NCBI RefSeq assembly: GCF_002943525.1
Contig: NZ_CP025394.1
Location: forward strand, 4,588,001-4,652,000
DNA from: Kitasatospora sp. MMS16-BH015
GTDB lineage: Bacteria; Actinomycetota; Actinomycetes; Streptomycetales; Streptomycetaceae
Reading direction: 5' to 3'
Length of the DNA: 64,000 nucleotides
Of this stretch, positions 9,794 through 44,474 are shown in pieces (the stretch's first letter is position 1; each line of letters begins with the position of its first letter). Both the position numbers and the translations under genes were made by a program. The notes beneath the pieces were generated by a model. That model saw nothing but the letters and a program-made list of their open reading frames with translations, ran no database searches and was not told where the DNA came from.

Positions 9794-9799
9794 TCTGCT

Positions 9800-10081: not shown

Positions 10082-10470
10082 GCGGCACCCTCGTACTTGA
10101 CAGCGAGGCACTGTCCAAGCTCTCCCGCCGGCAGCGCGACATGACCACTTGGCTGGATGTTGCACGAACGCTGGACCTCCTGGTCGTGACGAGCGCGGCG
10201 ACACTGGTCGAAGCACGTGACCCCAAGGTGCCCCAGGCGGCGTTCGACCACGCCGTGTCCCTGGCCAAGGTGCGGCCGATCACGGAAGAGATCGCACGGG
10301 CGGCGAGCAAGCTGCTCGCGGCCGAGGGACTGCACGGCCATAAGTACGCCATCGACGCAATGCTGGCAGCGACCGCGCATCTCGAGCGCGGCGATGTGAC
10401 GATCGTGACAAGTGACCCGGAGGACCTGCGTCGGCTGTGTCACCGCCGCATCGCGATCGAGTCGATCTGA
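10078..10470 (+). CDS. VapC-like PIN-domain toxin
   Basis: A 130-residue PIN-domain protein, a predicted Mg-dependent ribonuclease toxin. Acidic residues fit the PIN pattern: LVLDSEALSKL (first Asp), TLVEARDPK (Glu), KYAIDAMLAATA (Asp) and IVTSDPEDLRRL (last Asp). The GTG start overlaps the antitoxin stop by 4 bp, a coupled arrangement typical of type II toxin-antitoxin pairs. The RNA target is not predictable. It sits at the edge of the accessory island. Confidence 0.8.
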   Translation: MSGTLVLDSEALSKLSRRQRDMTTWLDVARTLDLLVVTSAATLVEARDPKVPQAAFDHAVSLAKVRPITEEIARAASKLLAAEGLHGHKYAIDAMLAATAHLERGDVTIVTSDPEDLRRLCHRRIAIESI

Positions 10471-11737: not shown

Positions 11738-12939
11738 GGGGCCAGCACCTCCGCGATCATGTCGACGCCGAGGTCGATCTCCTCGCGGGTGACGACCAGC
11801 GGCGGGGCGACCCGCAGGTGGCCGCGGGCCTCCTTGCAGAGCAGGCCGCGCTCGGCCAGCCGCTCGGTGACCCTGCGGTCCGCCCAGCGCTCCTCGGCGA
11901 TCTGGACGCCGGCCCAGAGGCCGCGTCCGCGCACCTCGGTGACGCCGTCCAGCTCGTTCAGCCGGGTGTGCAGGTGGGCGCCGAGCTCGCGCGAGCGCTC
12001 CTGCAGCTCGCCGGTGGCCAGCAGCCGTACCGCCGCCAGGCCGACCGCGCAGGCCAGCGGGTTGCCGCCGAAGGTGGAGCCGTGGTCGCCGTGCCCGATC
12101 ACCCGGAGCACGTCGGCCCGGCCGATCAGCGCGGAGAGCGGCAGCAGGCCGCCGCTCAGGCTCTTGCCGAGGGTGTAGAGGTCGGCCTTGACGCCCTCGT
12201 GGTCCAGGGCCAGGGTGTCGCCGGTGCGGGCCAGGCCGCACTGCACCTCGTCGGCGATGAAGAGCGTGTTGCTGTCGTCGCAGAGCTGCCGGACCTCGTT
12301 GAGGTAGCCCTTGGGCGGGACGACGATCCCGGCCTCGCCCTGCACCGGCTCCAGCAGGATCGCCGCGGTGTTCTCGGTGACCGCGCCGCGCAGCGCCTTG
12401 ATGTCGCCGAACGGCACGGTCTTGAAGCCGGGGGTGAACGGGCCGAAGCCGGCCTTGTGGTTCTCGTGCGAGGAGAAGGAGATGATCGAGATGGTCCGCC
12501 CGTGGAAGTTGGAGGCGGCCACGATCACCTCGGCGGCGCCGTCCGGCACGCCCTTGACCTGGTAGGCCCACTTGCGGGCCACCTTGATGGCGGTGTCGAT
12601 CGCCTCGCCGCCGGAGTTGGACGGCATCACCATCTCGGTGCCGGTCAGCTCGGCCAGCTCGCGGCAGAACGGCCCGTACTGGTCGTTGTGGAAGGCCCGG
12701 GTGCTCAGCGTGATCCGGTCGAGCTGGGCCTTGGCCGCCGCGACCAGGGCCGGGTGGCGGTGGCCGAAGTTGAGCGCGGAGTACCCGCCGTGGAAGTCGA
12801 GGTAGCGCCGGCCCTCGGAGTCGGTCACCCAGGCACCCTCTCCTTCGGAGAGCACGACCGGGAACGGCACGGAGTCGGGGCCGCCCCAGCGGGCGGCGAG
12901 GTCCATGTGGTCCTGGGCGGAGAGGAGGTCCGCAGTCAT
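11734..12939 (-). CDS. rocD: ornithine aminotransferase-like class III aminotransferase
   Basis: A 401-residue PLP-dependent class III aminotransferase, closest in character to ornithine-oxo-acid transaminase: GHRHPALVAAAKAQLD, SNSGGEAIDTAIKVAR, LLEPVQGEAGI, FIADEVQCGLARTG, and PLP-lysine in YTLGKSLSGG. It would move the delta-amino group of ornithine, or an analogous omega-amine, to 2-oxoglutarate. Its position between an SDR and a methyltransferase at the cluster edge, away from arginine genes, suggests a secondary-metabolite role; this is inference. The start is ATG 12939. Confidence 0.8.
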   Translation of the reverse strand: MTADLLSAQDHMDLAARWGGPDSVPFPVVLSEGEGAWVTDSEGRRYLDFHGGYSALNFGHRHPALVAAAKAQLDRITLSTRAFHNDQYGPFCRELAELTGTEMVMPSNSGGEAIDTAIKVARKWAYQVKGVPDGAAEVIVAASNFHGRTISIISFSSHENHKAGFGPFTPGFKTVPFGDIKALRGAVTENTAAILLEPVQGEAGIVVPPKGYLNEVRQLCDDSNTLFIADEVQCGLARTGDTLALDHEGVKADLYTLGKSLSGGLLPLSALIGRADVLRVIGHGDHGSTFGGNPLACAVGLAAVRLLATGELQERSRELGAHLHTRLNELDGVTEVRGRGLWAGVQIAEERWADRRVTERLAERGLLCKEARGHLRVAPPLVVTREEIDLGVDMIAEVLAP

Positions 12940-12968
12940 GGGGCGATGCTCCTTGTGTCTGAGGTCGA

Positions 12969-13032
12969 TGGGCCCGGCGGGCTTGGTGCGCGTCGCCGGG
13001 CGCCCTGGGCCCGGCGGGCTTGGTGCGCGTCG
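12969..13032. repeat. 27-bp direct repeat, period 37 bp
   Basis: Two perfect copies at 12969-12995 and 13006-13032 (core GGCCCGGCGGGCTTGGTGCG) fill the gap between the methyltransferase stop and the aminotransferase start. Each is GC-rich and could fold. No function is apparent. Confidence 0.8.
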
Positions 13033-13044
13033 GCGGAGCGGGGC

Positions 13045-13815
13045 TCAGGCCTTGCGGCCGACCGCGCCGTGGATCGGGAGGACGAAGTCCGTGGCCACCG
13101 CCCCGGCGTCCGGGTGCCACTCGGCGGCGGGCACCACGCCGGGGTCGAGCAGCTCGAAGCCCTCGAACAGGCCGGCGATCTGGGCCGCCGAGCGCAGGTG
13201 CATGTCCTCGGTGGCCCGGGCCAGCACCTCGGGGCTGTTCTCCGGGCGCCAGGGGAGGTCCGAGGCGACGTGCGAGATGACCAGGTGGCTGCCGGCCGGC
13301 AGGGCGTCCCGCAGCACGGCGGTGATCCGCGCCGGGTCGGCCTCCTCCGGCACGAAGTGCAGGACGGCGGCCAGGATGCAGGCCACCGGCCGGCCGGCCT
13401 CGATCAGGGCCCGGACGGCCGGCTGCGCCAGGATCGCCTCGGGCTCGCGGATGTCGGCCGGCACGAAGGCGGCCCGCGGCTCCTCGGCGATCAGTGCGCG
13501 GGTGCGCTCGCCGACGGTGGGGTCGAGGTCGCAGTAGACCACCGAGCCCTCGGGGTGCGCGGCGAGCACGGTCTCGTGGGTGTTCGGCGACAGCGGGAAG
13601 CCGGAGCCGATGTCGATGAAGCGGTCGATGCCGCGGGCGCTCAGCCACCGCACGGCCCGGGAGAGGAAGGCGCGGTTCTCCTGCATCGCGGCGATCAGGT
13701 CGGGGGCCTGGAGCCGGATCCAGAAACCGGCCGCGCGATCGGTCTCGAAACCGCTGTCGCCGCCGATGAAGTTGTCGTAGACACGGGCCTGTGCGGCATT
13801 GATCTCGATGGTCAT
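13045..13815 (-). CDS. SAM-dependent methyltransferase, DUF574 (PF04672) family
   Basis: 256 residues. Characteristic features of this actinobacterial family are the N-terminal INAAQARVYDNFIGGDSGFE, the SAM motif FIDIGSGFPLSPNTHE, VVYCDLDPTV, and the late segment ILAAVLHFVPEE. The substrate is unknown; many copies sit in secondary-metabolite clusters. It is read first in a leftward group with the aminotransferase and SDR (106 bp gap containing a direct repeat). It diverges from the esterase-like gene to its right. Confidence 0.85.
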   Translation of the reverse strand: MTIEINAAQARVYDNFIGGDSGFETDRAAGFWIRLQAPDLIAAMQENRAFLSRAVRWLSARGIDRFIDIGSGFPLSPNTHETVLAAHPEGSVVYCDLDPTVGERTRALIAEEPRAAFVPADIREPEAILAQPAVRALIEAGRPVACILAAVLHFVPEEADPARITAVLRDALPAGSHLVISHVASDLPWRPENSPEVLARATEDMHLRSAAQIAGLFEGFELLDPGVVPAAEWHPDAGAVATDFVLPIHGAVGRKA

Positions 13816-14057
13816 GGCGCGGCGTGCTTCCCCTCGGAGTCCAGGCGGCGGACTGCGCGGTCCGGCTGCGCAATCCGGTGCGGCGAACTAGATGCTGGCA
13901 CGGGCCCGGCGCGCGCGAGGTAAGCGGAATCCTTACCGGCCAGGGGCCGGGTCAGCGAAATGCGTCCGCCGGAATGCACCTGTCGCGGAGGCGGCCCGGG
14001 GCAGGGCGCCCGTACCGTGGCGCACCGTTGACACCTCTGGAATTCGGGGAGTTTTGC
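13816..14057. promoter_or_regulatory. divergent intergenic region
   Basis: 242 bp between the divergently read methyltransferase and alpha/beta hydrolase genes, and so likely to hold both promoters. A TTGACA hexamer occurs near 14030 but is too close to the hydrolase ATG for a normal leadered promoter. No operator could be defined. Confidence 0.35.
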
Positions 14058-14996
14058 ATGCCGCTTCATCCGGTCGTCGAGGGCATCAGGAACTTTCGCG
14101 TTGCCACCGGCTTCACCCCGCTCTACACCATGTCGGTGGAGGACGCCCGGACGGCGGACGCCGCGACCGAGGCCACCGCCTGGGACTGGACCACGCAGCC
14201 GGAGGAGGTCTTCGACCTGGACATCCCCGGCCCGGCCGGCCCGCTGACCCTGCGGGTCTACCGCCCGGTCACCGACAGCACCGGGCCGCTGCCGGTGCTG
14301 ATGTACTTCTTCGGCGGCGGCTTCGTGGTCGGCACCCTGCAGACCTCGGACGCGTTCTGCCGCGCGCTCTCCGACCTGTCCGGCTGCATGATCGTCTCGG
14401 TGGGCTACCGGCTGGCGCCGGAGCACCCCTTCCCCGCCGCGCCCGAGGACTGCTACGCCGCCACCGCCTGGGTGGCCGAACACGCCGGTGAGTTCGGCGG
14501 GGACGGCTCCCGGCTCGCGGTCGCCGGCGACAGCAACGGCGGCACGCTGGCCGCCGTGGTCTCGCTGATGGCCCGGGACCGCAAGGGACCGGAGATCACC
14601 GCCCAGGTGCTGGTCTACCCGGCGCTGCAGTACGGCTCGGACACCGCCTCGATGCGCGAGAACGTCGACCCGATGTTCTTCAACGGCATCTCGGTGCCGT
14701 GGTTCTGGAGCCTCTACCTGGCCGACCCGGCCGACGGTGCCTCCCCCTACGCCTCGCCGCTCAACGCGGCGGACCACTCCGGGCTCCCGGCGGCGCTGAT
14801 CGTCACGGCCGAGTACTGCCCGCTGCGGGACGAGGGCGAGGCGTACGCCAAGGCGCTCGCGGACGCCGGCACCACGGTGGACTTCCGGCCGCACGCCGAC
14901 CTGCCGCACGGCTTCCTCTCGATGGCCTCGGTGCTGCCCGAGGGCAAGCAGGCGCTGCTCGGGGTGGCCGACTTCCTGCGCACGCGGCTGGCCTGA
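14058..14996 (+). CDS. alpha/beta hydrolase, HSL (hormone-sensitive lipase-like) family
   Basis: A 312-residue esterase or lipase-type enzyme. The oxyanion motif usually written HGGG is FFGGGF here. The nucleophile elbow is GDSNGG, the acid lies in the AEYCPLRDEGE region, and the histidine is in DLPHGF. Loss of the first His of HGGG is unusual and may alter activity. The ATG at 14058 gives the standard N-terminus (MPLHPVVEGI). A strong hairpin follows the stop. A role in hydrolysing or transferring an acyl group of the cluster product is possible. Confidence 0.8.
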   Translation: MPLHPVVEGIRNFRVATGFTPLYTMSVEDARTADAATEATAWDWTTQPEEVFDLDIPGPAGPLTLRVYRPVTDSTGPLPVLMYFFGGGFVVGTLQTSDAFCRALSDLSGCMIVSVGYRLAPEHPFPAAPEDCYAATAWVAEHAGEFGGDGSRLAVAGDSNGGTLAAVVSLMARDRKGPEITAQVLVYPALQYGSDTASMRENVDPMFFNGISVPWFWSLYLADPADGASPYASPLNAADHSGLPAALIVTAEYCPLRDEGEAYAKALADAGTTVDFRPHADLPHGFLSMASVLPEGKQALLGVADFLRTRLA

Positions 14997-15011
14997 CCGG
15001 CCGTAAGGCGG

Positions 15012-15074
15012 GGAGCGAGGCTCCCGGTGGGGTGGGCGACCGAGTCGCCCGGGCCCGGCCGGGAGCCTCGCTCC
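15012..15074. terminator. strong hairpin after hydrolase gene
   Basis: A 16-bp perfect stem (GGAGCGAGGCTCCCGG paired with CCGGGAGCCTCGCTCC) enclosing a second small hairpin (GGGCGAC/GTCGCCC), between the hydrolase stop and the ATP-grasp gene. Confidence 0.6.
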
Positions 15075-15190
15075 GTGCTCGGCCGACGAGTTCGGTTTCT
15101 TCGGCAGGAATCTTCCGGCGCGCCGCGTGCCGGCATCACCGCGCGTGTGGTCGCGCACGCCTTCTCGCAATCCCCCCCGGAGGTCACGTC

Positions 15191-16381
15191 ATGAAATCCG
15201 TGCTCGTCCTGTCCTGGATAGCCATCGGCAACGTGCCCGCAGCGGTCCGGGAGATCCGCGCCCGCGGCCTTCGACCGGTGCTGGTCTCCAACCTGCCGGC
15301 GGACCCGAATGCCGGGCTCTGCGAGGACCACGTGGTCTTCGACTGGGACGGCGAGGAGCTGCCGGCCTTGCTCGCGCGGATCGAGGAGCGCGGGATCACA
15401 CCGATCGCGGTGGTCAGCATGGTCGAGAAGCTGATCGAGTGGAGCATCGCGCTCACCACGCACTACGACCTGCCGGGCGGCGGCCCGGCCCGGCAGGTGC
15501 TGGTCAGCAAGTACGCCGTCCGGGAGCACCTGCGGGCGACGGGGCGTTCGGCGATCAGGTTCACGGGTGACCCGCTGGCGGTGGACTTCTTCCCCGCCAT
15601 CCTCAAGCCCGCGCGGGAGTCCTCGGCCTCCTACCTGGTCAAGCGGGTGGACGACCGCGAGGAACTGCTGGCCCATCTGGCCGACTTGGAGCGGGCCGGC
15701 AAGGGCGGGGTGGAGCTGATCGCCGAGGAGTTCCTGGACGGGGTCGAGTTCTCGGTGGACGGCCCCGTGCTCGGCGGCCGCTTCCACCCGCTGCTCGCGG
15801 TGGAGAAGCCCGACCACGACGACCTGCGCCACCACGACGCCGGCCTGGAACTGCACCCGCCGCAGCGGGAGTTCGTCCGCGCGGGCGTCCGGGAGCTCAG
15901 TGAGGTGGTGAGCGGGCTCTGCGCCGACCGCGGCCTGGACCAGGTCTGGCTGCACTTCGAGGGCCGCAGCACGGCGGCGGGCCGCACCGAGCTGATCGAG
16001 ATCAACCTGCGGGCCGGGGGCGGGCAGATCCCGCACGTGCTCGGCGAGTTGTACGGCATCGACGTGTACGCGGTGATCGTCGCGATGGCGCTGGGCGAGT
16101 ACACGCCGGAGCAGGTGCCCGCACCGCGCGAGCGGCCGATGCTCGGCTGGTTCGACGTGGAGGCCAAGGAGGTCGGCACGGTCGAGGTGGCCACCACCGA
16201 GGCGGAGCTGCTCGCCCTGCCCGGGGTGCTCGACGTCAATCTGGCCCACGGCTACCGGGTCACCCGGCTGGACCAGGAGAACTTCTTCCTCTCCTTCACG
16301 ATGGCCGCCGACTCGGTGGACCAGCTGCGCGAGCACGCGGCCCGGGTGCTGGACACCCTGGAGTACGCGGTCCGGCCGTAG
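15191..16381 (+). CDS. ATP-grasp carboxylate-amine ligase
   Basis: 396 residues. The N-terminal pre-ATP-grasp domain (MKSVLVLSW...RPVLVSNLP) is followed by ATP-grasp strands FPAILKPARESSASYLVK (ATP-binding Lys) and IAEEFLDGVEFSVD. The Mg/ATP site is ELIEINLRAGGG, and the C-terminal region resembles amino-acid ligases of natural-product pathways. It would join a carboxylate, as acyl phosphate, to an amine. It is separate from the carrier-protein ligase at 29261 and is therefore a candidate for peptide or amide bond formation without the NRPS. ATG follows GGAGGTCACGTC. Confidence 0.82.
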   Translation: MKSVLVLSWIAIGNVPAAVREIRARGLRPVLVSNLPADPNAGLCEDHVVFDWDGEELPALLARIEERGITPIAVVSMVEKLIEWSIALTTHYDLPGGGPARQVLVSKYAVREHLRATGRSAIRFTGDPLAVDFFPAILKPARESSASYLVKRVDDREELLAHLADLERAGKGGVELIAEEFLDGVEFSVDGPVLGGRFHPLLAVEKPDHDDLRHHDAGLELHPPQREFVRAGVRELSEVVSGLCADRGLDQVWLHFEGRSTAAGRTELIEINLRAGGGQIPHVLGELYGIDVYAVIVAMALGEYTPEQVPAPRERPMLGWFDVEAKEVGTVEVATTEAELLALPGVLDVNLAHGYRVTRLDQENFFLSFTMAADSVDQLREHAARVLDTLEYAVRP

Positions 16382-17751: not shown

Positions 17752-18708
17752 TTAGAAGTACCCCTCGCGCTTGCGGTCCTCCATGGCAGCCTCGGACAGC
17801 TTGTCGTCGGCCCGGGTCGCGCCGCGCTCGGTGAGCGTCGAGGCGGCGATCTCCGCGATGATCTCGGTCAGCGTCGCGGCGTCGGAGTCGACGGCGCCGG
17901 TGCAGGACATGTCGCCGACGGTGCGGTAGCGCACCCGGCGGGTCTCGACCCGCTCGCCCTCGGCGGGGCCGCCCCACTCGCCGGCGGTGAGCCACATGCC
18001 GTGGCGGGAGAACACCTCGCGCTGGTGGGCGAAGTAGATCTCGGGCAGCTCGATCCCCTCGCGCTCGATGTACTGCCAGACGTCCAGCTCGGTCCAGTTG
18101 GAGAGCGGGAAGACCCGGACGTGCTCGCCGGGGCTGTGCCGCCCGTTGTAGAGCGACCAGAGCTCGGGGCGCTGGCGGCGCGGGTCCCACTGGCCGAACT
18201 CGTCGCGCAGCGAGAAGACCCGCTCCTTGGCCCGGGCCTTCTCCTCGTCGCGGCGGCCGCCGCCGAACAGCGCATCGAAGCGGTGGGTGGCGATCGCGTC
18301 CAGCAGCGGGACGGTCTGCAGCGGGTTGCGGGTGCCGTCCGGGCGCTCGCGCAGCCGGCCGTCGTCGATGAAGTCCTGCACCCTGGCCACGTCGAGCCGC
18401 ACGCCGGTCGCGGCCACCACGCGGTCGCGGTAGGCCAGCACCTCGGGGAAGTTGTGGCCGGTGTCCACGTGCAGCAGGCCGAACGGCACCTTCGCGGGCC
18501 AGAACGCCTTGGCCGCCAGGTGCAGCATGACGATCGAGTCCTTGCCGCCGGAGAAGAGCAGCACCGGCCGCTCGAACTGGGCGGCGGCCTCCCGGAAGAC
18601 GTGCACCGCCTCTGCCTCGAGCGCGTCCAGGTGGGTGCGGGCGGGTGCCCCGGTGCGGGCGGGTGTCCCGGTGTCGGCGGGTGTCCCGGTACGGGTCGCG
18701 GTCGTCAT
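17752..18708 (-). CDS. cysD: sulfate adenylyltransferase subunit 2
   Basis: A 318-residue PP-loop enzyme: SGGKDSIVMLHLAAKAF, HVDTGHNFPE, RRDEEKARAKER and SNWTELDVWQYI. With CysN it converts sulfate and ATP to adenylyl sulfate. The first 25 residues hold a Thr/Gly/Ala tandem (TGTPADTGTPARTGAPA) not typical of the family. It overlaps cysC by 4 bp. The stop is TAA. Confidence 0.93.
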   Translation of the reverse strand: MTTATRTGTPADTGTPARTGAPARTHLDALEAEAVHVFREAAAQFERPVLLFSGGKDSIVMLHLAAKAFWPAKVPFGLLHVDTGHNFPEVLAYRDRVVAATGVRLDVARVQDFIDDGRLRERPDGTRNPLQTVPLLDAIATHRFDALFGGGRRDEEKARAKERVFSLRDEFGQWDPRRQRPELWSLYNGRHSPGEHVRVFPLSNWTELDVWQYIEREGIELPEIYFAHQREVFSRHGMWLTAGEWGGPAEGERVETRRVRYRTVGDMSCTGAVDSDAATLTEIIAEIAASTLTERGATRADDKLSEAAMEDRKREGYF

Positions 18709-19250
18709 GCCAGGCCCCTCGTGGTCAGGAAGGCGTGCAGTGCGGCGGCGGATTCGGCCACCGACTGCCGCTGGGTCTCGATGCGCAGGTCCGGGTGCTC
18801 GGGTGCCTGGTACGGGTCGTCCACGCCGGTCAGGTGGGCGATCTCGCCGGCGGCCTGCTTGGCGTACAGGCCCTTGACGTCCCGCTCGGAGCAGACCTCG
18901 ACCGGGGTGGCGACGTGGATCTCCAGGAAGTCGGTGCCGGCCTTGTCGTGCTGCTCGCGGACGGCGGCGCGGGAGGTGGCGTAGGGGGCGATCACCGGGG
19001 CGAGCACCTTGACGCCGTGCGAGGCGAGCTTCTGGGCGACGAAGCCGATCCGGGTCACGTTGGTGTGCCGGTCCTCCTCGGTGAAGCCCAGGCCCTTGGA
19101 GAGGAACTCGCGGATCTCGTCGCCGTCCAGCACCTCCACCTGGTGGCCCTCGGCGCGCAGCCGCTCGGCCAGGGCGAGGGCCAGCGTGGTCTTGCCCGCG
19201 CTGGGCAGCCCGGTCAGCCACACGGTGGCGCCGCGTTCGGTGGCGCTCAT
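18705..19250 (-). CDS. cysC: adenylylsulfate kinase
   Basis: A 181-residue APS kinase: Walker A TGLPSAGKTT, LDGDEIREFL, RIGFVAQKLASHGV and VKGLYAKQAAGEIAHLTG. It makes PAPS, the donor for sulfotransferases. It is translationally coupled to cysD downstream and to the LysZ-like kinase upstream (overlaps of 4 bp), which ties PAPS supply directly to the carrier-protein pathway operon. Confidence 0.93.
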   Translation of the reverse strand: MSATERGATVWLTGLPSAGKTTLALALAERLRAEGHQVEVLDGDEIREFLSKGLGFTEEDRHTNVTRIGFVAQKLASHGVKVLAPVIAPYATSRAAVREQHDKAGTDFLEIHVATPVEVCSERDVKGLYAKQAAGEIAHLTGVDDPYQAPEHPDLRIETQRQSVAESAAALHAFLTTRGLA

Positions 19251-20092
19251 GCCGGCACCGCCGCAGCCTCGGCCAGGTGCACGGTGGTGCCGGCCCCGGC
19301 CAGGGCCGCGCTGACCGGGCGCTCGGTGCGGCCGTCGGCGATCCGTACGGTGGGGACCCCGCCGGCCAGCGCCTCGCGGGCGGCGATCAGCTTGAGCGCC
19401 ATGCCGCCGGTGGCGGAGGGGTCGGGGGCGCCGGTAGCGGCGATCCGCAGGCCGGCGCGGAGGCTGGCCGGGTCGGCCGGGTCGGCCAGCACGCCGGGGG
19501 CGCCGGTGAGCAGCAGCAGCTGCTCGGCGCCGAGGGCGGCGGCCAGCGCGGCGGCGGCCCGGTCGGCGTCCACGTTGACCGGGCGGTCGTGTTCGTCGAT
19601 GGCCGGCGGGGAGACCACCGGCACGAAGCCGGCCGCCAGCAGGGCCTGCGGCAGGGTGGGGTCGACGGTGGTGATCCGGCCGCTCTGGTTGTCCCGGACC
19701 AGCACGGTGCGGCCCTCGACCACGGCCCGGACGGCCGCCTTGCGGCGGGCTCGCAGCAGGCCGCCGTCCAGGCCGGTCAGGCCGACGGCGGGCACCCGGT
19801 GGCGGGCCAGCTCGGCCACCAGCCGGGGCTTGACCGCCCCGGCCAGGGCGAGCACGACCACCTCGAGGGTCTCGGGGTCGGTGTAGCGGGTGGAGACGCC
19901 GTCGGGGGCGGTCAGGGTGCGGTGCGGGACGCCGAGCCGGCCGCCCAGGCGGGCGATCTCGCCGGAGCCGCCGTGCACCAGGAGGACGGAGTGGCCCTGG
20001 TGGACCAGGCCGGCCAGGTCGGCGCAGATGCCTGCGGCGTCGACGGCGGGGTTGCCGCCGACCTTGACGACGGTCAGGGGTTGGGTGGTCAC
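19247..20092 (-). CDS. lysZ: LysZ/ArgB-type kinase acting on carrier-bound glutamate or aminoadipate
   Basis: A 281-residue amino-acid kinase: VVKVGGNP at the N-terminus, VLLVHGGSGEIARLG, TGLDGGLLRARR, and VNVDADRAAAALA. It would phosphorylate the side-chain carboxylate of the amino acid attached to the amino-group carrier protein. Its neighbours (LysY-type reductase upstream, carrier protein, LysX and LysK) favour this over N-acetylglutamate kinase. GTG 20092 is chosen because the first beta strand follows. It overlaps cysC by 4 bp. Confidence 0.85.
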   Translation of the reverse strand: MTTQPLTVVKVGGNPAVDAAGICADLAGLVHQGHSVLLVHGGSGEIARLGGRLGVPHRTLTAPDGVSTRYTDPETLEVVVLALAGAVKPRLVAELARHRVPAVGLTGLDGGLLRARRKAAVRAVVEGRTVLVRDNQSGRITTVDPTLPQALLAAGFVPVVSPPAIDEHDRPVNVDADRAAAALAAALGAEQLLLLTGAPGVLADPADPASLRAGLRIAATGAPDPSATGGMALKLIAAREALAGGVPTVRIADGRTERPVSAALAGAGTTVHLAEAAAVPA

Positions 20093-20115
20093 GCTCTCTC
20101 CGGTTCGGCCGGGGG

Positions 20116-21144
20116 CTACAGCGGGTGGAGGCCGGGGAAGGTCAGGCCGAGGTGCTCGGGCAGGCCCATCCGGACGTTGAGGCACTGCACGGCGTTGCCG
20201 GCCCCGCCCTTGACCAGGTTGTCCAGGGCGCCGATGGTGGTCAGCCGGCCCTGCTCCTCGTCCACGGCGAAGCCCACGTCGCAGAAGTTCGACCCCAGCA
20301 GGATCTTCGGGTCGGGGTAGCGGTGGATGCCGCGCTGGTGCGCGACCACCCGGACGAAGGGCTCGTCCGCGTACTGCACCCGGAAGGCCCGGCGCACCGC
20401 CTTGCTGTCCACGCCGGGGCGCAGCGTGGCGTGGCAGAGCGTCTGGGCGCCGCGCACGGCCTCGACCCCGGTGGCGGTCATCGCGGTGGGCAGGCCCAGG
20501 TGGCGGGCGATCTCGGCCTCGTGCCGGTGCCGGGTGGGGGCGAAGACCCGCATGGCGCCGCTGCGTTCGGCGTGCAGGTTGGCCGGGCCCGCGGTGGCCC
20601 CCGAGCCGCTGGAGCCGGTCCGGGCGTCGACCTGGGCACCCCGGTCAAGGTCGATCAGGTCGTGCGCCACCAGCGGGTGGAGGGCGAGCACGGCGGCGGT
20701 GGCCATGCAGCCGGGCACGCTGATCAGGTCGGCGGTGCGCAGCCGCTCCCGGTAGAGCTCCGGCAGGCCGGGCACGAAGGCCTCCAGCAGCTTGGGGGCG
20801 AGGTGGTCCTCGCCGTAGTACTGCCGGAAGACCTCGGGATCGGCCAGCCGGAAGTCGCCGGTCAGGTCGAGCACCACGCCGGCCCGGTCGCGCCACTGCT
20901 CGATCTGGGTCATCGCCACCCGGTGCGGCAGGGCCAGGAAGACGGCGTCGCTCTCCGGCACCTCCTCGGCCGAGCAGAAGGCCAGGTCGGTGACGGAGCG
21001 CAGGTTCGGGTGCACCCCGTCGATCCGCTTTCCGGGGAAGCGCGAGGAGACCGCGCCCACCAGCTCGAACTCGGGGTGCCCCAGCAGCAGCCGCAGCAGC
21101 TCCCCGCCGATGTAGCCGGCCGCGCCGACCACGCTCACTCGCAC
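20116..21144 (-). CDS. lysY: LysY/ArgC-type reductase of carrier-bound acyl phosphate
   Basis: 342 residues. NADPH-binding VVGAAGYIGGELLRLLLGHP lies at the N-terminus. The catalytic Cys is in SVPGCMATAAVLALHPL, followed by the TGSSGSGATAG loop and HRHEAEI. It would reduce the acyl phosphate made by the adjacent LysZ-type kinase to the semialdehyde while the substrate stays on the carrier protein. GTG 21144 is chosen because GGAGG lies 5 nt upstream; a TTG at 21156 is the alternative. Confidence 0.87.
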   Translation of the reverse strand: MRVSVVGAAGYIGGELLRLLLGHPEFELVGAVSSRFPGKRIDGVHPNLRSVTDLAFCSAEEVPESDAVFLALPHRVAMTQIEQWRDRAGVVLDLTGDFRLADPEVFRQYYGEDHLAPKLLEAFVPGLPELYRERLRTADLISVPGCMATAAVLALHPLVAHDLIDLDRGAQVDARTGSSGSGATAGPANLHAERSGAMRVFAPTRHRHEAEIARHLGLPTAMTATGVEAVRGAQTLCHATLRPGVDSKAVRRAFRVQYADEPFVRVVAHQRGIHRYPDPKILLGSNFCDVGFAVDEEQGRLTTIGALDNLVKGGAGNAVQCLNVRMGLPEHLGLTFPGLHPL

Positions 21145-21186
21145 AACGTCCTCCAACCTGCAGGGGTCTGATCGTGGTTCGGTGGG

Positions 21187-23085
21187 TCAGCCGGCGTGGT
21201 CGGCGGCCAGGATGCCGAAGTTGCGGCGGGCGATCGACACGGCGAGGTCCTGCACGGCGTAGGCCGAGACGTAGTAGCCGTGCGGCGCGATGTCGGGGGT
21301 GAGGGTCAGCGTGAAGACGGCCTCGCCGGTGCCGTCGGCGCCGATCTTGACCTTCCGCAGGTCCGGCACGATGCTGCAGCCGGAGCGCCCGTAGCTGGCG
21401 AAGAACAGGCCGAGCCGCAGGATGCCGGGGCGGGCCTCGCGCACGGCCACCCGGACCTCGTTGGTGGTGCCCTGGCGGGCGCCGTCCTCGGCGTGGACGA
21501 GCAGCGAGGGGGAGTCGGGCAGCCGGAAGGCCACGTCGCCGCAGCGGGTGCAGACGATGCCCTCGGTGTCGAGCACGGTGGGCACCAGGGCGTTGCGCCG
21601 GTACCGCTCGGCGGGCCGGCCGCACTGGCAGCGCACGTGGGCGAGGCTGGCCAGGTCGATCCGGCTGCGCTCGCCGAAGTAGCCGAAGCAGTTGCTGAGT
21701 TCGTTCTCCGGGTCCTTGACGAACTGGGTGGCGATGGCCATGTCCAGCGACTGGAGGTCGTCCAGCAGGCCGCGGATCACCGGGGTGCGGTCCTGGTTCA
21801 CCGCGAGGTCGCGGCGGGAGACCTGGCCCTCCACCTTGGTGGCGAGCTTGCCCAGGCGGGCGCGGAGCGGGTTGTTGGGGGAGAGCGCCCCGCCGGCCAG
21901 GTAGGCGGTGAGCCGGGCCGAGGTGGTGAGCAGCAGTTGCTCCGGCTCGACGGTGGGCAGTGCGGGCACGGCGCCGGAGTCCTCGGCCAGGCCGAACTGC
22001 ACGTAGGCGGGGTAGGGCTCGGAGGTGCAGATGCTCGTGTTGAGCGCGGTCACGGAGGCGGTGCCGGTGAGCGCGGCCTCCGTCCAGACGAGGTTCTCCG
22101 GGCGGGTGGAGCCGTGCACGGTGATCGCGCCGACCACGTTGCGGGCGGTGCCGTCGATCGCGTTCAGCATCAGCTGGTACTTGGGGTCGTAGACCGTGGC
22201 GTCGGCGAACGGGCTGTTGTTGCAGGAGCTCAGCACCACCTCGGCGGTGCGGATCTCGCGCAGCTGGATGAGCTTGTCCACCGGCTTGTAGCAGGTGGAG
22301 GTGGCGCAGATCGGGGCGACCATCTCGAGGTTGCGGCCGACCGTCTCGTTCAGGCCGCAGATGGTGTAGTCGGCGAGGTTGAGCGAGTCGTCCTTGCCGT
22401 GGCCCTGGAGCATCAGCCGGCGCCAACGGGTGCCGAGGATCTCGGACCTGACGTCCACCGACTCCAGCTCGGCCTCGTTGCGCAGGTGGACGCCGCTGCG
22501 GGTGAAGCCGCGGTCCACGGCCGTGAAGAGGCCGAACTCCTCGACGTCATCGGCGGGTTCGAGGTACTGCTTGGCGGTGAACCAGGCCAGCGAGGCGGCG
22601 TCCCGGCCGGTCAGGAAGACCAGCTTCAGCTCGGGGCGGGTGCCGGCGGCGCGCACCAGCGGCCAGATCAGGTCCACCGTGAAGTGCTCGTAGAGGCCGG
22701 CGATCACCAGCGAGACGGGCTGCCCGCCGGCGGCCGGGGCGAGGCGCTCCAGCAGGGCGGGGGCGAGCTCGGCCTCGTCCAGCCACTCGGCCGCGCAGGG
22801 GGTGATCAGCGCGCGCAGGCCGGCCGGCAGGGTCTGCGGGGCGAGCAGCACGCCGTGGGTGCGGGGGGCGGGACGGCGGACCGCTCCGTACACCTCGGCC
22901 GCGCGCTCGGCGGAGGCGGCCAGGTCGGTGCGGCCGCCGGTCCAGACCGGGACGGCGGTGGGCGCCTCGGCGGCGAGGAAGGCGTCGACGGCGGCGGTGT
23001 ACGAGCCCGCGTCGTCGAGGACCGAGAACGGCGAGGTCATCAGGGTGGCCGTCCCGGCGCCGGGACCGTGGGGCTCGGACTGCAT
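21187..23085 (-). CDS. caspase/CHAT-like protein with C-terminal zinc ribbon, function unknown
   Basis: A 632-residue soluble protein that I cannot name. Residues 222-240 (LMLQGHGKDDSLNLADY) and 280-290 (AEVVLSSCNNS) resemble the His-Gly and strand-Cys elements of clan CD peptidases (caspase/CHAT type), giving a predicted H229/C288 dyad. A zinc ribbon follows at C486, C488, C512 and C515 (RCQCGR, VCTRCG), and a C-terminal beta domain after that. It lies between the carrier protein and its reductase in the same operon. The start is ATG 23085 with AAAGGAG upstream. It might process or recognise the carrier protein, or it may be a non-peptidase scaffold. Confidence 0.6.
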   Translation of the reverse strand: MQSEPHGPGAGTATLMTSPFSVLDDAGSYTAAVDAFLAAEAPTAVPVWTGGRTDLAASAERAAEVYGAVRRPAPRTHGVLLAPQTLPAGLRALITPCAAEWLDEAELAPALLERLAPAAGGQPVSLVIAGLYEHFTVDLIWPLVRAAGTRPELKLVFLTGRDAASLAWFTAKQYLEPADDVEEFGLFTAVDRGFTRSGVHLRNEAELESVDVRSEILGTRWRRLMLQGHGKDDSLNLADYTICGLNETVGRNLEMVAPICATSTCYKPVDKLIQLREIRTAEVVLSSCNNSPFADATVYDPKYQLMLNAIDGTARNVVGAITVHGSTRPENLVWTEAALTGTASVTALNTSICTSEPYPAYVQFGLAEDSGAVPALPTVEPEQLLLTTSARLTAYLAGGALSPNNPLRARLGKLATKVEGQVSRRDLAVNQDRTPVIRGLLDDLQSLDMAIATQFVKDPENELSNCFGYFGERSRIDLASLAHVRCQCGRPAERYRRNALVPTVLDTEGIVCTRCGDVAFRLPDSPSLLVHAEDGARQGTTNEVRVAVREARPGILRLGLFFASYGRSGCSIVPDLRKVKIGADGTGEAVFTLTLTPDIAPHGYYVSAYAVQDLAVSIARRNFGILAADHAG

Positions 23086-23194: not shown

Positions 23195-23374
23195 CTACTC
23201 GCCCCAGTCCTCCTCGACCTCGGGGGCGAGGGCGAGCACGGTCGGGTCGAGGGCGACGATCTCCAGCTCGCTGCGGCAGCCGCCGCACTCGACGATCTCG
23301 TTGAGCCGGGCGGAGGCGCCGATGGAGACCGGCTCCTCGCACTCCGGGCAGGGCTGAGCGGTCAGCGTGGTCAC
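23195..23374 (-). CDS. lysW: LysW-type amino-group carrier protein (AmCP)
   Basis: A 59-residue protein. It has a zinc-ribbon N-terminus with CPEC at residues 9-12 and CGGC at 30-33, an acidic body, and the diagnostic C-terminal EDWGE. The terminal Glu gamma-carboxylate takes the amino group of the substrate, protecting and carrying it through the pathway. Lysine and arginine routes of Thermus and archaea use such proteins. In actinomycetes they serve secondary metabolism such as vazabitide A. GTG 23374 overlaps the stop of the transketolase C-terminal subunit gene by 4 bp. Confidence 0.93.
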   Translation of the reverse strand: MTTLTAQPCPECEEPVSIGASARLNEIVECGGCRSELEIVALDPTVLALAPEVEEDWGE

Positions 23375-24339
23375 GAGACGTGTTCCTTTCGGTGGGTGGT
23401 TCCGGAGCGGGCCGCGGTGTCGAGGGCGGTACGGACCGCCCTCACCACCCGCTCCGCGGTGAGGTCGTAGTGCGCGATCAGGTGTTCCTGGTTGCCCACC
23501 TGGTCGACAAAGGTGTCCGGTACGCCCAGGCGCAGCACCCGCACCGGCGCGCGCTCGGCCAGCGTCTCGGCGACGGCGCCGCCGAGGCCGCCGCCGCGCC
23601 AGTGCTCCTCCAGGGTGACCACCAGGTCGGCCGGGCCGGCCGCGGCGACCAGCGCCTCGGTGTCCAGCGGGCGCAGGGTGTGCATGTTGAGCACGGTGGC
23701 CTCGATGCCGTGCCCGGCGAGCTCCTCGGCCGCCGCGAGGCAGGCGAGCACCGGGTAGGCGCCGCAGGCGGCCAGCACCACGTCGCCGCCCTCGCGCAGG
23801 GTCTGCGCCTTGCCGATGACGGGCGGCGGGCCGGGCGGCAGCGCCGGGGTGGCCTTGCGGCCGAGCCGCACGTAGAGCGGGCCGGGCAGGTGCAGGCTCT
23901 GCTCCAGCACGGCCTCGGTGGCGGCGGCGTCGGCCGGCACCACCACGGTCATCCCGGGCAGCACCCGCATCACCGCGAGGTCCTCCAAGGCCTGGTGGGT
24001 CGGGCCGAGGTGGCCGGCGGCCAGGCCGCCGTGGGTGGCCATGATCCTGACCGGCAGCCCGTTGTAGGCGATGTCGATCTTGATCGCCTCCAGCGCCCGG
24101 GAGGTGGCGAAGGCGGCCATGGTGTTGACGAACGGCACCCGCCCGCAGGCCGCCATCCCGGCGGCCATCCCCATCAGGTTCTGCTCGGCGATGCCGAGGT
24201 TGAGGTACTGCTCGCCGGCCGCGGCCACCTGCTCCGCGCCGAACAGGCCGGTGTCGGAGTCCAGGCAGATCAGCTCGGGGTGGCGGGCCAGCAGCGGGAT
24301 CAGGGCGTCCCGGTACGCCTCGCGGGTCGCGCGGCTCAT
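23371..24339 (-). CDS. transketolase, C-terminal (pyrimidine/TKC) subunit
   Basis: 322 residues. The pyrimidine-binding domain (LGIAEQNLMGMAAGMAACG, VNTMAAFATSRALEAIK) is followed by the C-terminal transketolase domain (VVLAACGAYPVLACLAAAEEL, LEEHWRGGGLG). It forms the active TPP enzyme with the N-terminal subunit encoded just upstream (overlap 4 bp). In AmCP-dependent azabicycle pathways a split transketolase adds a two-carbon ketol unit to the carrier-bound semialdehyde. It overlaps the carrier protein gene. Confidence 0.9.
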   Translation of the reverse strand: MSRATREAYRDALIPLLARHPELICLDSDTGLFGAEQVAAAGEQYLNLGIAEQNLMGMAAGMAACGRVPFVNTMAAFATSRALEAIKIDIAYNGLPVRIMATHGGLAAGHLGPTHQALEDLAVMRVLPGMTVVVPADAAATEAVLEQSLHLPGPLYVRLGRKATPALPPGPPPVIGKAQTLREGGDVVLAACGAYPVLACLAAAEELAGHGIEATVLNMHTLRPLDTEALVAAAGPADLVVTLEEHWRGGGLGGAVAETLAERAPVRVLRLGVPDTFVDQVGNQEHLIAHYDLTAERVVRAVRTALDTAARSGTTHRKEHVS

Positions 24340-25184
24340 GCCGTGGCCTCCGTGGCCCGCAGCGCGTTGCGCGCCCGGGAGTGGTTGCGGGGCGAGAGGG
24401 TGACGTAGTGGCTCGCGGCCCGGCCGGCCAGGAAGGGCAGGCCCTGGCCCTTGACCGTGCGGGCCAGCAGCACGCTCGGCTTGCCGGGCTCCCAGGGGCC
24501 GGCGCCGAGGTGCTCGGCGAGCAGCGCCGGGTCGTGCCCGTCCACCTCGCGCACCGACCAGCCGAAGCTGCTCCAGCGCTCGGCCAGCGGCTCCATCGGG
24601 GCGATGCCCTCGGTCGGGCCGGTCAGCTGGAGGCCGTTGCAGTCCACGATCGCGACCAGCCGGTCCAGGCCCAGACTGGCGGCGGCGATGGCCGCCTCCC
24701 AGACCGAGCCCTCCTGGAGCTCGCCGTCGCCCAGCAGCACGAAGCTGCGCGAGGTGCGGCCCGCGTACCGGTTGGCCAGCGCGAAGCCGCAGGCCAGCGG
24801 GAGGCCGTGGCCCAGCGAGCCGGTCGGCAGCTCCACCCCGGGCACCGCGCGGACGGGGTGGCCCATCAGCCGGCTGCCGGGACGGCCGAACTCGGCCAGC
24901 TCCTCGACCGGGAAGTACCCGCGCTCGGCCAGGGTGGCGTAGAGCGCGAGGGCCGCGTGGCCCTTGCTGAGCAGGAAGCGGTCACGGTCCGGGTCCGCCG
25001 GTCGGAGCGGGTCGGCGTTCATGACCGAGAAGTAGAGCGCGGTGAGCACGTCGGTGCAGGAGAGGCCGCCGCCGAGGTGGCCGCCCTCGGGCCCGGCGCA
25101 CATGTCCACCACGTGCCGGCGGATCCGGGCGGCGACGGCCGCCAGGGTCTCGGGCTCGGCGCGCTCCAGCAGGGCGCCGGTCAT
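24336..25184 (-). CDS. transketolase, N-terminal (TPP) subunit
   Basis: A 282-residue TPP-binding half: [47 protein letters not shown], and the TPP motif [15 protein letters not shown]...IVDCNG. It pairs with the C-terminal subunit. Start ATG 25184 overlaps the stop of the DegT-type aminotransferase gene by 4 bp, so aminotransferase, both transketolase halves and carrier protein form one coupled block. Confidence 0.9.
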
Positions 25185-28258: not shown

Positions 28259-29005
28259 TCACCCGGCCTGCTCCGCGCCGAGCGGCTCGAGGGCGACGGC
28301 GCGCAGCTTCTCGTAGTACGGCTGGTGGTGGTCGCGGTAGCCGCGCAGCACCGGGTCGGCCTCGACCTTCGCGGCGCCGTCGGTGCGGCGGCGGGCGAAG
28401 CCGGTGGTCTCGCTGGTCGACTGGTGCCACTTGCTGGTCGACTGCCACTCCGAGCGCATGCCGGACTGCCAGTTCAGCGCCTCGGGGCGGTAGTCGATGC
28501 CGACGGCCGCGCAGTAGGCGCGCACCGTCTCGGCCGGCCGGTCGAGCAGGTCGTCCGAGTCCACCACCACCGGGGTGCGGCCGGTGGCCTCCTGCACGGC
28601 GGTGAAGATCTCGTACAGCCGGGCGAAGCCGATCTCCTCAAGCCCCAACTCCGGGTTGAGCTCGTGGTGCGAGGCGATCGCCTCGGCCGGGTCCCGGATG
28701 ATGAAGGTGTGGGTGGCGCCGGTCAGGAAGGCTCGGTCTGCGAGCAGCTCGGGGTAGTGGAAGTCCGTGGTGTCCTTGAAGAACACCGGCTGCTCCGCGG
28801 CCATCGCGCGCAGCCGGGCCAGCACCTCCAGCTCGCTGTGCACCGGGGTGCCGCCCACCTCGACCTCGCCGAAGTCGACCACCCGGGAGAGCGGCTCGTG
28901 CACCACGGCGTGGTCGCCGCGCTCGGTCATCATCCGGGCGAAGGCGGTCGAGCGGCAGCGCGGCGCGCTCCACAGTGCGATCACCGGAATCCGCAGGTCT
29001 CCCAC
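28259..29005 (-). CDS. PAPS-dependent sulfotransferase
   Basis: 248 residues. The PAPS 5'-phosphosulfate loop is LWSAPRCRSTAFARMM at the N-terminus. FIIRDPAEAIASHHE is the 3'-phosphate-binding region. RPEALNWQSGMRSEWQ and YYEKLRA lie at the C-terminus. It would sulfate a hydroxyl of the carrier-bound amino acid so that it becomes a leaving group for aziridine closure. Co-location with cysN/cysD/cysC supports in-cluster PAPS supply. The start is GTG 29005. Confidence 0.83.
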   Translation of the reverse strand: MGDLRIPVIALWSAPRCRSTAFARMMTERGDHAVVHEPLSRVVDFGEVEVGGTPVHSELEVLARLRAMAAEQPVFFKDTTDFHYPELLADRAFLTGATHTFIIRDPAEAIASHHELNPELGLEEIGFARLYEIFTAVQEATGRTPVVVDSDDLLDRPAETVRAYCAAVGIDYRPEALNWQSGMRSEWQSTSKWHQSTSETTGFARRRTDGAAKVEADPVLRGYRDHHQPYYEKLRAVALEPLGAEQAG

Positions 29006-29260: not shown

Positions 29261-30142
29261 GTGTCAGCGACGCCCGAGCGCCCAGACGCCAGCAGGATCG
29301 CCGTGCTCGCCAGCCGGGTCGGCGCGGACGAGAAGCGGCTGTTCGACGCCTTCGACCGGCGCGGCGTCCCCTTCGAGCACCTCGACCCGCGCCGGCTCTG
29401 GTTCCCGGCCGGGCAGCGCGAGCTGCCCTGGGGCCTCGCGCTGAACCGGGAGATCGGCCAGACCCGGGCGGCCTACGCGGCCCGCTGCCTGGCCGCCGCC
29501 GGGGTCGAGGTGCTCAACAGCGTGACCGCGACCGAGGTCTGCGGCGACAAGTGGCTCACCACCCAGGCCCTGGAGGCCGCCCGGGTGCCGACCCCGCGCA
29601 CCGCGCTGGGCCTCACCCCGGAGGCCGCGCTGGCCGCGCTGGACGAATCCATCGGCTACCCGGCGCTGATCAAGCCGCTGGTCGGCTCCTGGGGCCGGCT
29701 GGTCGTCCAACTCCCCGACCGGGCGGCGGCCGAGGCCGTGCTGGAGTACGCCGGCGCGCTCACCGGCCCGCAGTCGCACCTGGGTTACGTGCAGGAGCTG
29801 ATCGACAAACCCGACCGGGACATCCGGGTGATCGTGGTCGGCGGGCAGGTGGTCGGCGCGATCTACCGCACTGGCGAGGGCCTGCGCACCAACGTGGCCC
29901 TCGGCGGCAGGGCGCTGCCCTGCGAGGTGACCCCGGAGATCGAGAAGCTCTCCCTCGAGGCCGCCGCCGCCGTCGGCGCGGACATCGCCGGGGTCGACCT
30001 GATCGAGGCCGGCGACGGCCGGCTGCTGGTGCTGGAGGTCAACCACCGGGTGGAGTTCTCCGGCTTCCAGGCCGCCCTCGGCGACCGGGTCAGCGTCGCC
30101 GACCACATCCTCGACCACCTCCTGGAACGGGCAGCGCGATGA
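29261..30142 (+). CDS. lysX: LysX-type ligase that loads the amino-group carrier protein
   Basis: A 293-residue RimK/LysX-family ATP-grasp enzyme: CGDKWLTTQALEAARVPTPR, YPALIKPLVGSWGRLV, YVQELIDKPDRDIRVIVVGG, and LEVNHRVEFSGFQ at the metal/ATP site. It forms the isopeptide bond between the carrier protein's terminal Glu and the amino group of glutamate or aminoadipate. GTG 29261 follows CCGGAGGTCAC. It overlaps the LysK-type hydrolase by 4 bp. Confidence 0.9.
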   Translation: MSATPERPDASRIAVLASRVGADEKRLFDAFDRRGVPFEHLDPRRLWFPAGQRELPWGLALNREIGQTRAAYAARCLAAAGVEVLNSVTATEVCGDKWLTTQALEAARVPTPRTALGLTPEAALAALDESIGYPALIKPLVGSWGRLVVQLPDRAAAEAVLEYAGALTGPQSHLGYVQELIDKPDRDIRVIVVGGQVVGAIYRTGEGLRTNVALGGRALPCEVTPEIEKLSLEAAAAVGADIAGVDLIEAGDGRLLVLEVNHRVEFSGFQAALGDRVSVADHILDHLLERAAR

Positions 30143-31257
30143 ACTGGGCCTTCACCAGCTCCGGCAAGGTCACCGAGACCTACGCCGCCGGGCTGCTCCG
30201 CCGCATGCTGGAGATCCCCTCCTGTTCGTACCACGAGCGGGAGTTGGCCGACTTCCTGGCCGAGGAGATGACCGGCCTGGGCTACCGGACGCACATCGAC
30301 GAGGCCGGCAACGTGATCGGGGTGATCGAGCACGGCCCCGGCCCCACGGTCATGCTGCTCGGGCACCTGGACACCGTCGCGGGCCACGTCCCGGTCCGCT
30401 CCGAGGACGGCCGGCTGTACGGCCGCGGCGCGGTGGACGCCAAGGGCCCGCTGGCCGCGATGGTCTGCGCCGCGGCCGGCGCCGTCGACTTCCCCGGCAC
30501 CCTGGTGGTGATCGGCGTTGTCGAGGAGGAGACTCCGCGCTCGCGCGGCGCGATGGCCGTCCGGGCCCGCCAGCAGCGGCCGGACGCGCTGGTGATCGGC
30601 GAGCCGAGCGGCTGGTCGAGCGTGGTGCTCGGCTACAAGGGCAAGCTCGACCTGCGCTACACCGTCAAGTGCGCGGCCACCCACCCGAGCAACCCGGTGC
30701 CCAAGGCCTCCGAACTGGCCGTGGCCTGCTGGAACGCACTGGTCGAGCTGCTCGGCCCCGACGCGAGCCACGCCGTCTTCGACCGGCCCGGCGCCACGCT
30801 CTGCCAGCTCAACGCCGACCTGACCACGGCCACCGTGGACCTGAGCGTGCGCACCCCGCCCGGTTTCGACGACGAGGGGCTGGTCCGCGCGCTGCGCGAG
30901 CGGCTGCCCGAGGGCGAGCTCAAGGTGCTCAACTCGGTGGCCGCCTGCCGGGTGGGCCGGGCCGACCCGGCCGTCCGCGCCCTGGTCACCGGCATCCGCC
31001 GGCTGCACGCCCAGCCCCGGCTGGTGCTCAAGACGGCCACCTCGGACATGAACACCCTGGCCGAGGAGTGGGACATCCCGATGGCCACCTACGGCCCCGG
31101 CGACAGCAGCCTCGACCACGCCGACGACGAGCACATCCTGCTGGCCGACTACCTGCGCGGCATCGACGTGCTCACCATCGCCCTCTCCGAGCTGGCCCAC
31201 CTCCCGGCCCGCGACCGGGCGGCCGCCGCCCCGCAGCCGCTGAGGAGCGTCAAGTGA
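30139..31257 (+). CDS. lysK: LysK-type M20 hydrolase releasing product from the carrier protein
   Basis: A 372-residue zinc aminoacylase of family M20. Metal ligands are in [13 protein letters not shown] (His, Asp), [13 protein letters not shown] (Asp), [11 protein letters not shown] (Glu pair) and [12 protein letters not shown] (His). It cleaves the amide that holds the finished amino acid on the carrier protein. ATG 30139 overlaps the lysX stop. The last codons (PLRSVK) are repeated at the ends of the two mini-genes that follow. Confidence 0.9.
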
Positions 31258-43142: not shown

Positions 43143-44474
43143 TCAGCTTCCCTCGATCACCGGGGTGTCGGCCGCATCGCCGTCTGCCGCCGGGGCGACG
43201 AAGAGCGGGCGGGAGCCGAAGGCCAGGGCCGCGACCACCAGCATGGCCAGCACCACGCCGAGGAAGGGGGCCCAGGTGCCGTAGGCACCGAGCACGAGGC
43301 CGCCGAGCTGGGAGCCGATCGCCGAGCCGCCGACGGTGACCGTGATCGCCCAGGTGTACGCCTCGGTGACGTAACCCTCGCGCGCGGTACGGGAGATGAG
43401 CTCGTAGGAGAGCGCTGTCGCCGGGGCCTCCAGCAGGCCGAGGGCGACCAGGGCCACGCTCATCGACCAGTTGTCCCAGGCCACCAGTACCAGGGCGGAG
43501 GCCACCCCGAGGGCCAGCAGGGCCCAGGCGAAGACCGTCTCGGTGGGCTGGCGGAAGGTGCGGCTGCCGTACCAGAGCCCGCCGAGGATGCCGCCGACGC
43601 CCCAGACCCCGAAGACCAGGCCGATCTGGTTGGCCGAGCCGTGGGTCTCGACGAAGGTGGGCACCGCGACGTTGTAGGCGCCGGTGGCCAGCCCGGCGGT
43701 GAAGAGCAGCACCAGTAGCCGGACCAGCGGCCTGGAGCGGAGGGCGCCCAGCGGGTCGCGCTTGCCGGTGACGGGGGCCACCTTGCGGCCCCGGGAGGCC
43801 CGGGTCAGGGCGAAGCCGAGCGCCCCGATGCCGGTGAGCACCCCGCCGACCACCAGGGCCGAGCCCGCGTCGCCCCAGATCAGCACCAGGCTGAGCAGCA
43901 GCGGCCCGCCGATGGTGAAGGCCTCGCCGAGCACCGCCTCCAGCGAGAGGCCGACCCGCTCGGTGTTGCCCGGCGCGCTCCAGAGCGAGCGGATGCAGCC
44001 GCTGATCGGCGGGATCGCGGCGCCGGCCACGACCGCGCAGGCCAGCTGCAGGGTCAGCGCCTTCGGGTCGGCGAGCACGAAGCCGATCAGCGCCAGCGGG
44101 TTGACCAGGCCGGTGATCAGCAGCACCGGCGGCTGCCCGTACCGGTCGACGAACCGGGCCACGAACGGCGCCAGCAGGGCGGCGCCGATGCTGTAGGCGG
44201 AGAGCATCAGGCCGGCCTGGAAGTAGCTGAGCCCCCGTCCGGTGGAGAAGACCACCATGGAGACCGAGATCAGGTAGAGCGGGAGCCGGCCGAGCACGCT
44301 CCAGAACAGCGGGGCGCGCATGACCTTGTCGCGGATCGCCGCCGCGAACGGGTTCTTGACGGCGGCGGGCTCGGCGGCCGGCTCGGCGGCGGGCTCGGTG
44401 GGCTCGGCCGCGGGGGCTGCCGAGGGCTCCAGGGCGTCGGCGTCCTGCGCGGCTTCGGAGGCGGTGGGCGGCAT
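43143..44474 (-). CDS. MFS transporter, likely exporter of the cluster product
   Basis: A 443-residue integral membrane protein with about 12 hydrophobic segments and a long Ala/Glu/Pro-rich cytoplasmic N-terminus (PAAEPTEPAAEPAAEPAA). Recognisable MFS features are FQAGLMLSAYSIGAALLAPF and a D-RYG loop (ARFVDRYGQPP) after the second helix. It lies between the ATP-grasp-like gene and the PPTase gene within the cluster, reading the same way. Export or self-resistance is the likely role. Confidence 0.85.
   Translation of the reverse strand: MPPTASEAAQDADALEPSAAPAAEPTEPAAEPAAEPAAVKNPFAAAIRDKVMRAPLFWSVLGRLPLYLISVSMVVFSTGRGLSYFQAGLMLSAYSIGAALLAPFVARFVDRYGQPPVLLITGLVNPLALIGFVLADPKALTLQLACAVVAGAAIPPISGCIRSLWSAPGNTERVGLSLEAVLGEAFTIGGPLLLSLVLIWGDAGSALVVGGVLTGIGALGFALTRASRGRKVAPVTGKRDPLGALRSRPLVRLLVLLFTAGLATGAYNVAVPTFVETHGSANQIGLVFGVWGVGGILGGLWYGSRTFRQPTETVFAWALLALGVASALVLVAWDNWSMSVALVALGLLEAPATALSYELISRTAREGYVTEAYTWAITVTVGGSAIGSQLGGLVLGAYGTWAPFLGVVLAMLVVAALAFGSRPLFVAPAADGDAADTPVIEGS

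Follow-up and report, generated by a model that had tools for sequence, protein, structure and literature searches.

That demethylblasticidin S is leucylated for self-resistance is a proposal dating from 2000. The modification lowers toxicity 20-fold, and BlsL acts efficiently only after the beta-amine has been leucylated; the activity of a leucyl-demethylblasticidin S (LDBS) synthetase could not be demonstrated, and the cited blasticidin papers name no enzyme for the reaction (PMC5572114). Leucine is taken off by PepN (PMC4664946). Natural product enzymes that depend on aminoacyl-tRNA, as covered by a January 2026 review, comprise GNAT-fold proteins (DhpH-C, VlmA), CDPS, PEARLs, AcmF and SbzA, none of them caspase-like (PMC12945691). 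In the azabicycle route, diamino-dihydroxy-heptanoic acid, probably made on the amino-group carrier protein AmCP, is sulfated and then closed to the aziridine (PMC9570651).

The protein considered here is encoded in a 64,000-nucleotide stretch of Kitasatospora sp. MMS16-BH015 DNA, analysed as a whole and called the window. It is homologous over its full length to the hypothetical protein BlsK of blasticidin S-type clusters (44-49% identity), a name that rests on gene order and not on comparison with the S. griseochromogenes reference sequence. The two share C288, C243, C260, C265 and a cysteine ribbon (window numbering); an MFS exporter adjoins BlsK, and an ATP-grasp ligase lies near. BlsK differs in standing among cytosine and beta-arginine genes, not AmCP genes.

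A BlsK relative in an azabicycle-type cluster

The features of the window that bear on the analysis are as follows.

15191..16381, plus strand: ATP-grasp ligase (ATP-grasp_4; 62-79% identity in L001, L002, L003 and L007)
19247..20098, minus strand: LysZ-type kinase
20116..21156, minus strand: LysY-type reductase
21187..23085, minus strand: BlsK-family protein, probably caspase/CHAT-like, 632 aa (homology, alignment; no Pfam, NCBIfam or PDB sequence match)
21541..21630, minus strand: zinc-ribbon-like CxC...CxxC (C486, C488, C512, C515)
22222..22224, minus strand: C288 codon, aligned with the CHAT catalytic Cys (hhalign)
22399..22401, minus strand: H229 codon (His-Gly motif)
23195..23374, minus strand: AmCP, LysW-type amino-group carrier (CPEC...CGGC sequence, conservation)
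23371..25184, minus strand: two-subunit transketolase, DADH pathway
28259..29005, minus strand: sulfotransferase, azabicycle pathway (Sulfotransfer_5)
29261..31257, plus strand: LysX/RimK ligase and LysK-type hydrolase, for AmCP loading and release (RimK, LysX_preATP_grasp; LysK assigned from sequence)
43143..44474, minus strand: BlsJ-family MFS exporter (MFS_1; co-occurrence with the BlsK relative, 52-80% identity in genomes that have it)

The original prediction of a 632-residue protein encoded between the carrier and its reductase is borne out, with the open reading frame on the minus strand. Its GC content by codon position (0.70/0.51/0.98) is typical of the adjoining genes. Since it begins 109 bp past the AmCP stop, ends 30 bp ahead of LysY and shares one strand with both, co-transcription of the three genes is plausible. 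Single-protein searches of Pfam, NCBIfam and PDB sequences gave zero matches, and relatives in public plasmid records are called 'hypothetical protein' or have no feature there.

The surrounding cluster is of the azabicycle AmCP type, with LysX/RimK, LysZ, LysY, LysK, the two-part transketolase, a DegT aminotransferase and the sulfotransferase, and it also holds CysN/D/C, a BtrH-like protein and an NRPS; this gene content fits the published route (PMC9570651). Positions 42089-47325 carry a LAL-type ligase, a phosphopantetheinyl transferase, an ACP, a truncated SerRS-like amino acid:carrier-protein ligase and an AurF-like N-oxygenase, that is, a second amino acid activating unit, which the nearly identical cluster of G381 has as well.

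Distribution of the family and its tie to an exporter

About 36 usable sequences were obtained from seven named genomes, genus and family surveys, a class survey and plasmid records. Blasticidin S-type loci contribute 17 of them (three partial, cut by contig ends), plus the decayed L006. Their operon order is CGA synthase, BlsE, BlsF, BlsG, DegT, ATP-grasp ligase with LAL_C2, MFS exporter, BlsK relative, BlsL-like methyltransferase and BlsM-like hydrolase, and in all 17 the gene stands between BlsI-BlsJ and BlsL-BlsM, exactly the blsK position. The identity of BlsL is supported by a published reverse primer, which encodes a C-terminal CFYKD where the proteins here end in CFLKD. The window gene lies outside a BlsJ-BlsL interval, its BlsJ-like MFS relative being about 20 kb away, and its cluster is of the AmCP azabicycle type; the window protein is thus a BlsK relative in another type of cluster and not a positional BlsK.

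Directly downstream of blsM, L021 carries an M1-family peptidase gene (11982-13376) whose product has a hydrophobic N-terminus, and the same place is occupied by such a gene in L017-L020, L022, L023, L055, L057, L058, L061 and L191. Alongside housekeeping PepN, this peptidase is a candidate for taking off the leucine cap outside the cell.

Relatives also occur in arginomycin-like loci (L062, L063 and L188, the last with annotated beta-methylarginine genes), in an uncharacterised cluster (L004, L005), in loci with NRPS, dioxygenase and ATP-grasp genes (L024, L187, L189) and in L064 and L065; L067, L068 and L186 hold distant relatives, and none was found on viral contigs. In L187 (9248-10961) the BlsK relative is disrupted by a stop and frame changes, with an NRPS and an ATP-grasp gene adjoining. 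In a Bombilactobacillus that came from a stingless bee, a plasmid (L190) bears two MFS genes and, at 6355-6852, a BlsK-like fragment in split reading frames (32% over 165 aa), a possible distant transfer.

The original prediction saw the protein as recognising, clipping or gating the carrier or its enzymes and proposed a survey of whether homologues always accompany AmCP genes. They do not. In the window the gene is indeed flanked by AmCP and LysY, and in L001, L002, L003 and L007, the other azabicycle-type carriers of the gene, it comes after AmCP, but about 30 relatives, mostly in blasticidin S-type operons, sit in clusters without detected AmCP: in the gene-bearing loci tested beyond the azabicycle group, tblastn detected neither AmCP nor transketolase, LysY or LysZ. 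Conversely, among 16 other azabicycle loci gathered by marker gene AmCP was seen in 13 and a relative of the window protein in none, and the family survey returned no match to it in the genomes of those loci. This two-way distribution is in substance what had been named as speaking against a link with AmCP, and since a LysK-type enzyme already covers carrier release, a factor specific to AmCP is highly improbable. The ribbon, once thought to recall that of the carrier, is kept in relatives of the blasticidin type that have no AmCP in their vicinity and is therefore no adaptation to it. By this analysis AmCP is a neighbour of the window protein and not its functional partner; that reading was rejected on the distribution across clusters, which corrects the idea of a caspase-like processing factor in AmCP pathways.

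A firmer association is found with the exporter, a BlsJ relative with 39-47% identity in blasticidin and arginomycin-like loci. In whole-genome searches it was present in 5/5 gene-positive azabicycle genomes (59-100% identity, window included) and in 0/11 gene-negative ones, where the best copies reach at most 38% (Fisher P 2e-4, with the relatedness of the genomes ignored). The cluster of G381 nearly matches that of the window, with the same SDR, aminotransferase, methyltransferase, esterase, LAL, ACP, amino acid:carrier-protein ligase, AurF-like oxygenase, NRPS, acyl-CoA dehydrogenase and AmCP set, and among the genes compared it is without only three: the BlsK relative, the exporter and the ATP-grasp ligase. 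Relative to G381, the window cluster has gained these three. Ligase and exporter are both found in L001, L002, L003 and L007, and the ligase is absent from the G381 stretch. From the co-occurrence and the comparison with G381, the window protein belongs with the exporter and, in most clusters, with a peptide ligase. Elsewhere in the same genome (6675001-6695000, L205, at 7910-10466) lie a second exporter copy (80-83%) and an ATP-grasp relative (53%) of the window ligase, without a BlsK relative.

These genomes are rich in CHAT proteins, and the gene might be imagined to be a remnant or to encode something unrelated, such as a CHAT protein of the defence type that was trapped in the cluster. 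The same operon position in many species, the invariant motifs described below and the mostly biosynthetic-looking loci make this very unlikely.

Conserved residues and the clan CD question

Conservation was counted in a 36-sequence alignment of the BlsK family, with residues numbered as in the window protein. The residues singled out by the original prediction are real and conserved: C288, within EVVLSSCNNSP, is present in 36/36; H229, within QGHGKDDS, is His in 33/36, with Asn replacing it in L024, L189 and the decayed L187; and the cysteines of the ribbon (C486-x-C488, C512-xx-C515) are kept in 35/35 where covered. Motifs so widely retained among relatives are not due to chance. The dyad of a His-Gly and a strand-end Cys is accordingly present in the window protein, its His missing in three of the 36 sequences. 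L024 (9975-11834) and L189 (11902-13716) encode intact relatives with Asn at H229, both beside NRPS, TauD-like dioxygenase, ATP-grasp and MFS genes, and constitute a natural test of the need for the histidine.

Three further cysteines between His and Cys, C243, C260 and C265, which the original prediction did not mention, are likewise found in 36/36. Their invariance makes a metal site near the active site likely, and because they are as invariant as C288, the latter could be a fourth zinc ligand.

Sequence comparison lends some support to the suspicion of a clan CD fold. When the family profile was aligned by hhalign with CHAT domains gathered from actinomycete genomes, C288 came to stand opposite the catalytic Cys of CHAT (15 sequences gave P 1.5e-4 and 19 gave 3.5e-5; probability 52-72%, the upper value with the P of 3.5e-5), while column-shuffled and reversed controls gave P ~0.7 or worse. 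The match is weak but specific. The endings of distant members, FVLFGDPD or ILVIGDPE, resemble those of CHAT-type domains. The single-protein Pfam scan was empty, a profile search of PDB sequences reached a best E of 0.39, which is chance-like, and AlphaFold models built with eight homologues were of low confidence both for the whole window protein (pLDDT 43) and for residues 40-372 (pLDDT 38). A C-terminal beta-sandwich (~523-630) was alone good enough for structure comparison and gave generic Ig-like matches. The window protein is probably a CHAT/caspase-type member of clan CD, as far as H229/C288, the profile match and the GDP endings indicate. It shares with CHAT peptidases (PF12770, clan CD) the Cys position, the His-Gly motif and, in distant members, the GDP ending; unlike them, the BlsK family matches no Pfam model, has an inserted C243...C260...C265 element, carries a putative C-terminal zinc ribbon and an Ig-like beta-sandwich, and does not keep His strictly.

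Two rival functions were weighed. Clan CD members are mostly peptidases, often specific for Arg or Lys, and blasticidin and arginomycin-type products have arginine-derived residues; the protein might hence be a self-resistance or proofreading peptidase or amidase that cleaves, within the producing cell, either the antibiotic or an intermediate peptide. This is unlikely: removal of a cap in the cytosol would unmask the toxin in its producer, PepN already takes leucine off (PMC4664946), and the described pathway needs no further peptidase step. Somewhat less doubtful, though still a minority option, is a non-catalytic escort: a caspase-like fold, no longer catalytic and stabilised by two zinc sites, would bind the mature antibiotic and hand it to the BlsJ-family exporter. 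The tight coupling to the exporter suits such a role, as do Asn at H229 in two intact and one decayed homologue and the complete conservation of C243, C260, C265 and C288 (all 36/36), as expected of a Cys4 zinc site; against it, H229 persists in 33/36, even in very distant members whose endings are CHAT-like, C288 lines up with the nucleophile of CHAT, and leucylation in blasticidin S biosynthesis would be left without a gene.

Capping of antibiotics as a proposed role

Most likely the window protein caps the completed antibiotic, or handles it in some other way, so as to protect the producer. The mechanism preferred here, to which about even credence is given, is that it is a cytosolic caspase-like acyl-transfer enzyme which, ahead of export, shields an amine of the antibiotic with an aminoacyl cap, and that in blasticidin producers its counterpart is the LDBS synthetase. 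A BlsK-family protein would then be a cytosolic caspase/CHAT-like enzyme with added, putative zinc sites, whose substrate would be the finished or nearly finished antibiotic and not AmCP. C288, assisted by H229, would hold the aminoacyl group, presumably as a thioester, and transfer that group onto an amine of the peptidyl product, whose capped form would be less toxic; the capped form would leave through the co-inherited BlsJ-family exporter, and a peptidase outside the cell would strip the cap.

For blasticidin the argument runs by elimination. All conserved operon genes but blsK and blsF have been assigned a step, and BlsF is related to CGA synthase, so BlsK is likely the missing LDBS synthetase; alternatively, BlsI could perform two ligations. 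An analogous role is inferred for the window protein, where a comparable reaction may belong to the azabicycle pathway. Several observations count against capping: the clusters do not all have an ATP-binding motif or a dedicated donor enzyme in common, a coherent NRPS/dioxygenase subgroup has Asn in place of H229, three other cysteines are as invariant as C288, and the models are of low confidence, as noted above.

It is tempting, though only tentatively so, to go further and regard the BlsK family as a new class of aminoacyltransferases with a caspase/CHAT fold that bears zinc sites; such enzymes would form aminoacyl-Cys from an activated donor such as aminoacyl-tRNA, would supply the missing LDBS synthetase, and would move between unrelated clusters as a module with the exporter and often a ligase. 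The resemblance to the aminoacyl-tRNA-dependent transferases (GNAT-fold DhpH-C and VlmA, CDPS, PEARLs, AcmF, SbzA) lies only in the proposed outcome, an amino acid placed on an antibiotic amine. Aminoacyl-tRNA is no more than a possible donor.

Candidate evidence on the donor was considered and rejected. As a donor system, the window's ACP and amino acid:carrier-protein ligase are not specific, since G381 has both without a BlsK relative. A tRNA link suggested by L067, where an ArgRS stands beside the distant homologue and a tRNA gene is present, was also set aside: two FemAB-like transferases there explain both, and ArgRS copies elsewhere without a CHAT gene further undercut this support. ARAGORN tRNA calls in L054 and L056 were left out, as they overlap or abut coding genes.

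In L067, segments 6764-8542, 8551-10815, 12181-13221, 13921-15174, 15293-15379 and 18221-19486 hold the distant BlsK relative, an ArgRS paralogue, the two FemAB-like transferases, a LAL-type ligase and the tRNA gene. The tRNA scores 38.2 bits, above the Rfam cut-off, and combines a tRNA-Leu-like D-arm and a long variable arm with an anticodon arm like that of tRNA-Arg(UCU), which suggests a dedicated chimeric tRNA for peptide biosynthesis.

The analysis supplies a single testable candidate for the LDBS synthetase. If the proposed role is true, the caspase-like fold would join the enzymes that attach amino acids to antibiotics, and the BlsK family would form part of a portable protection-and-export module useful in genome mining.
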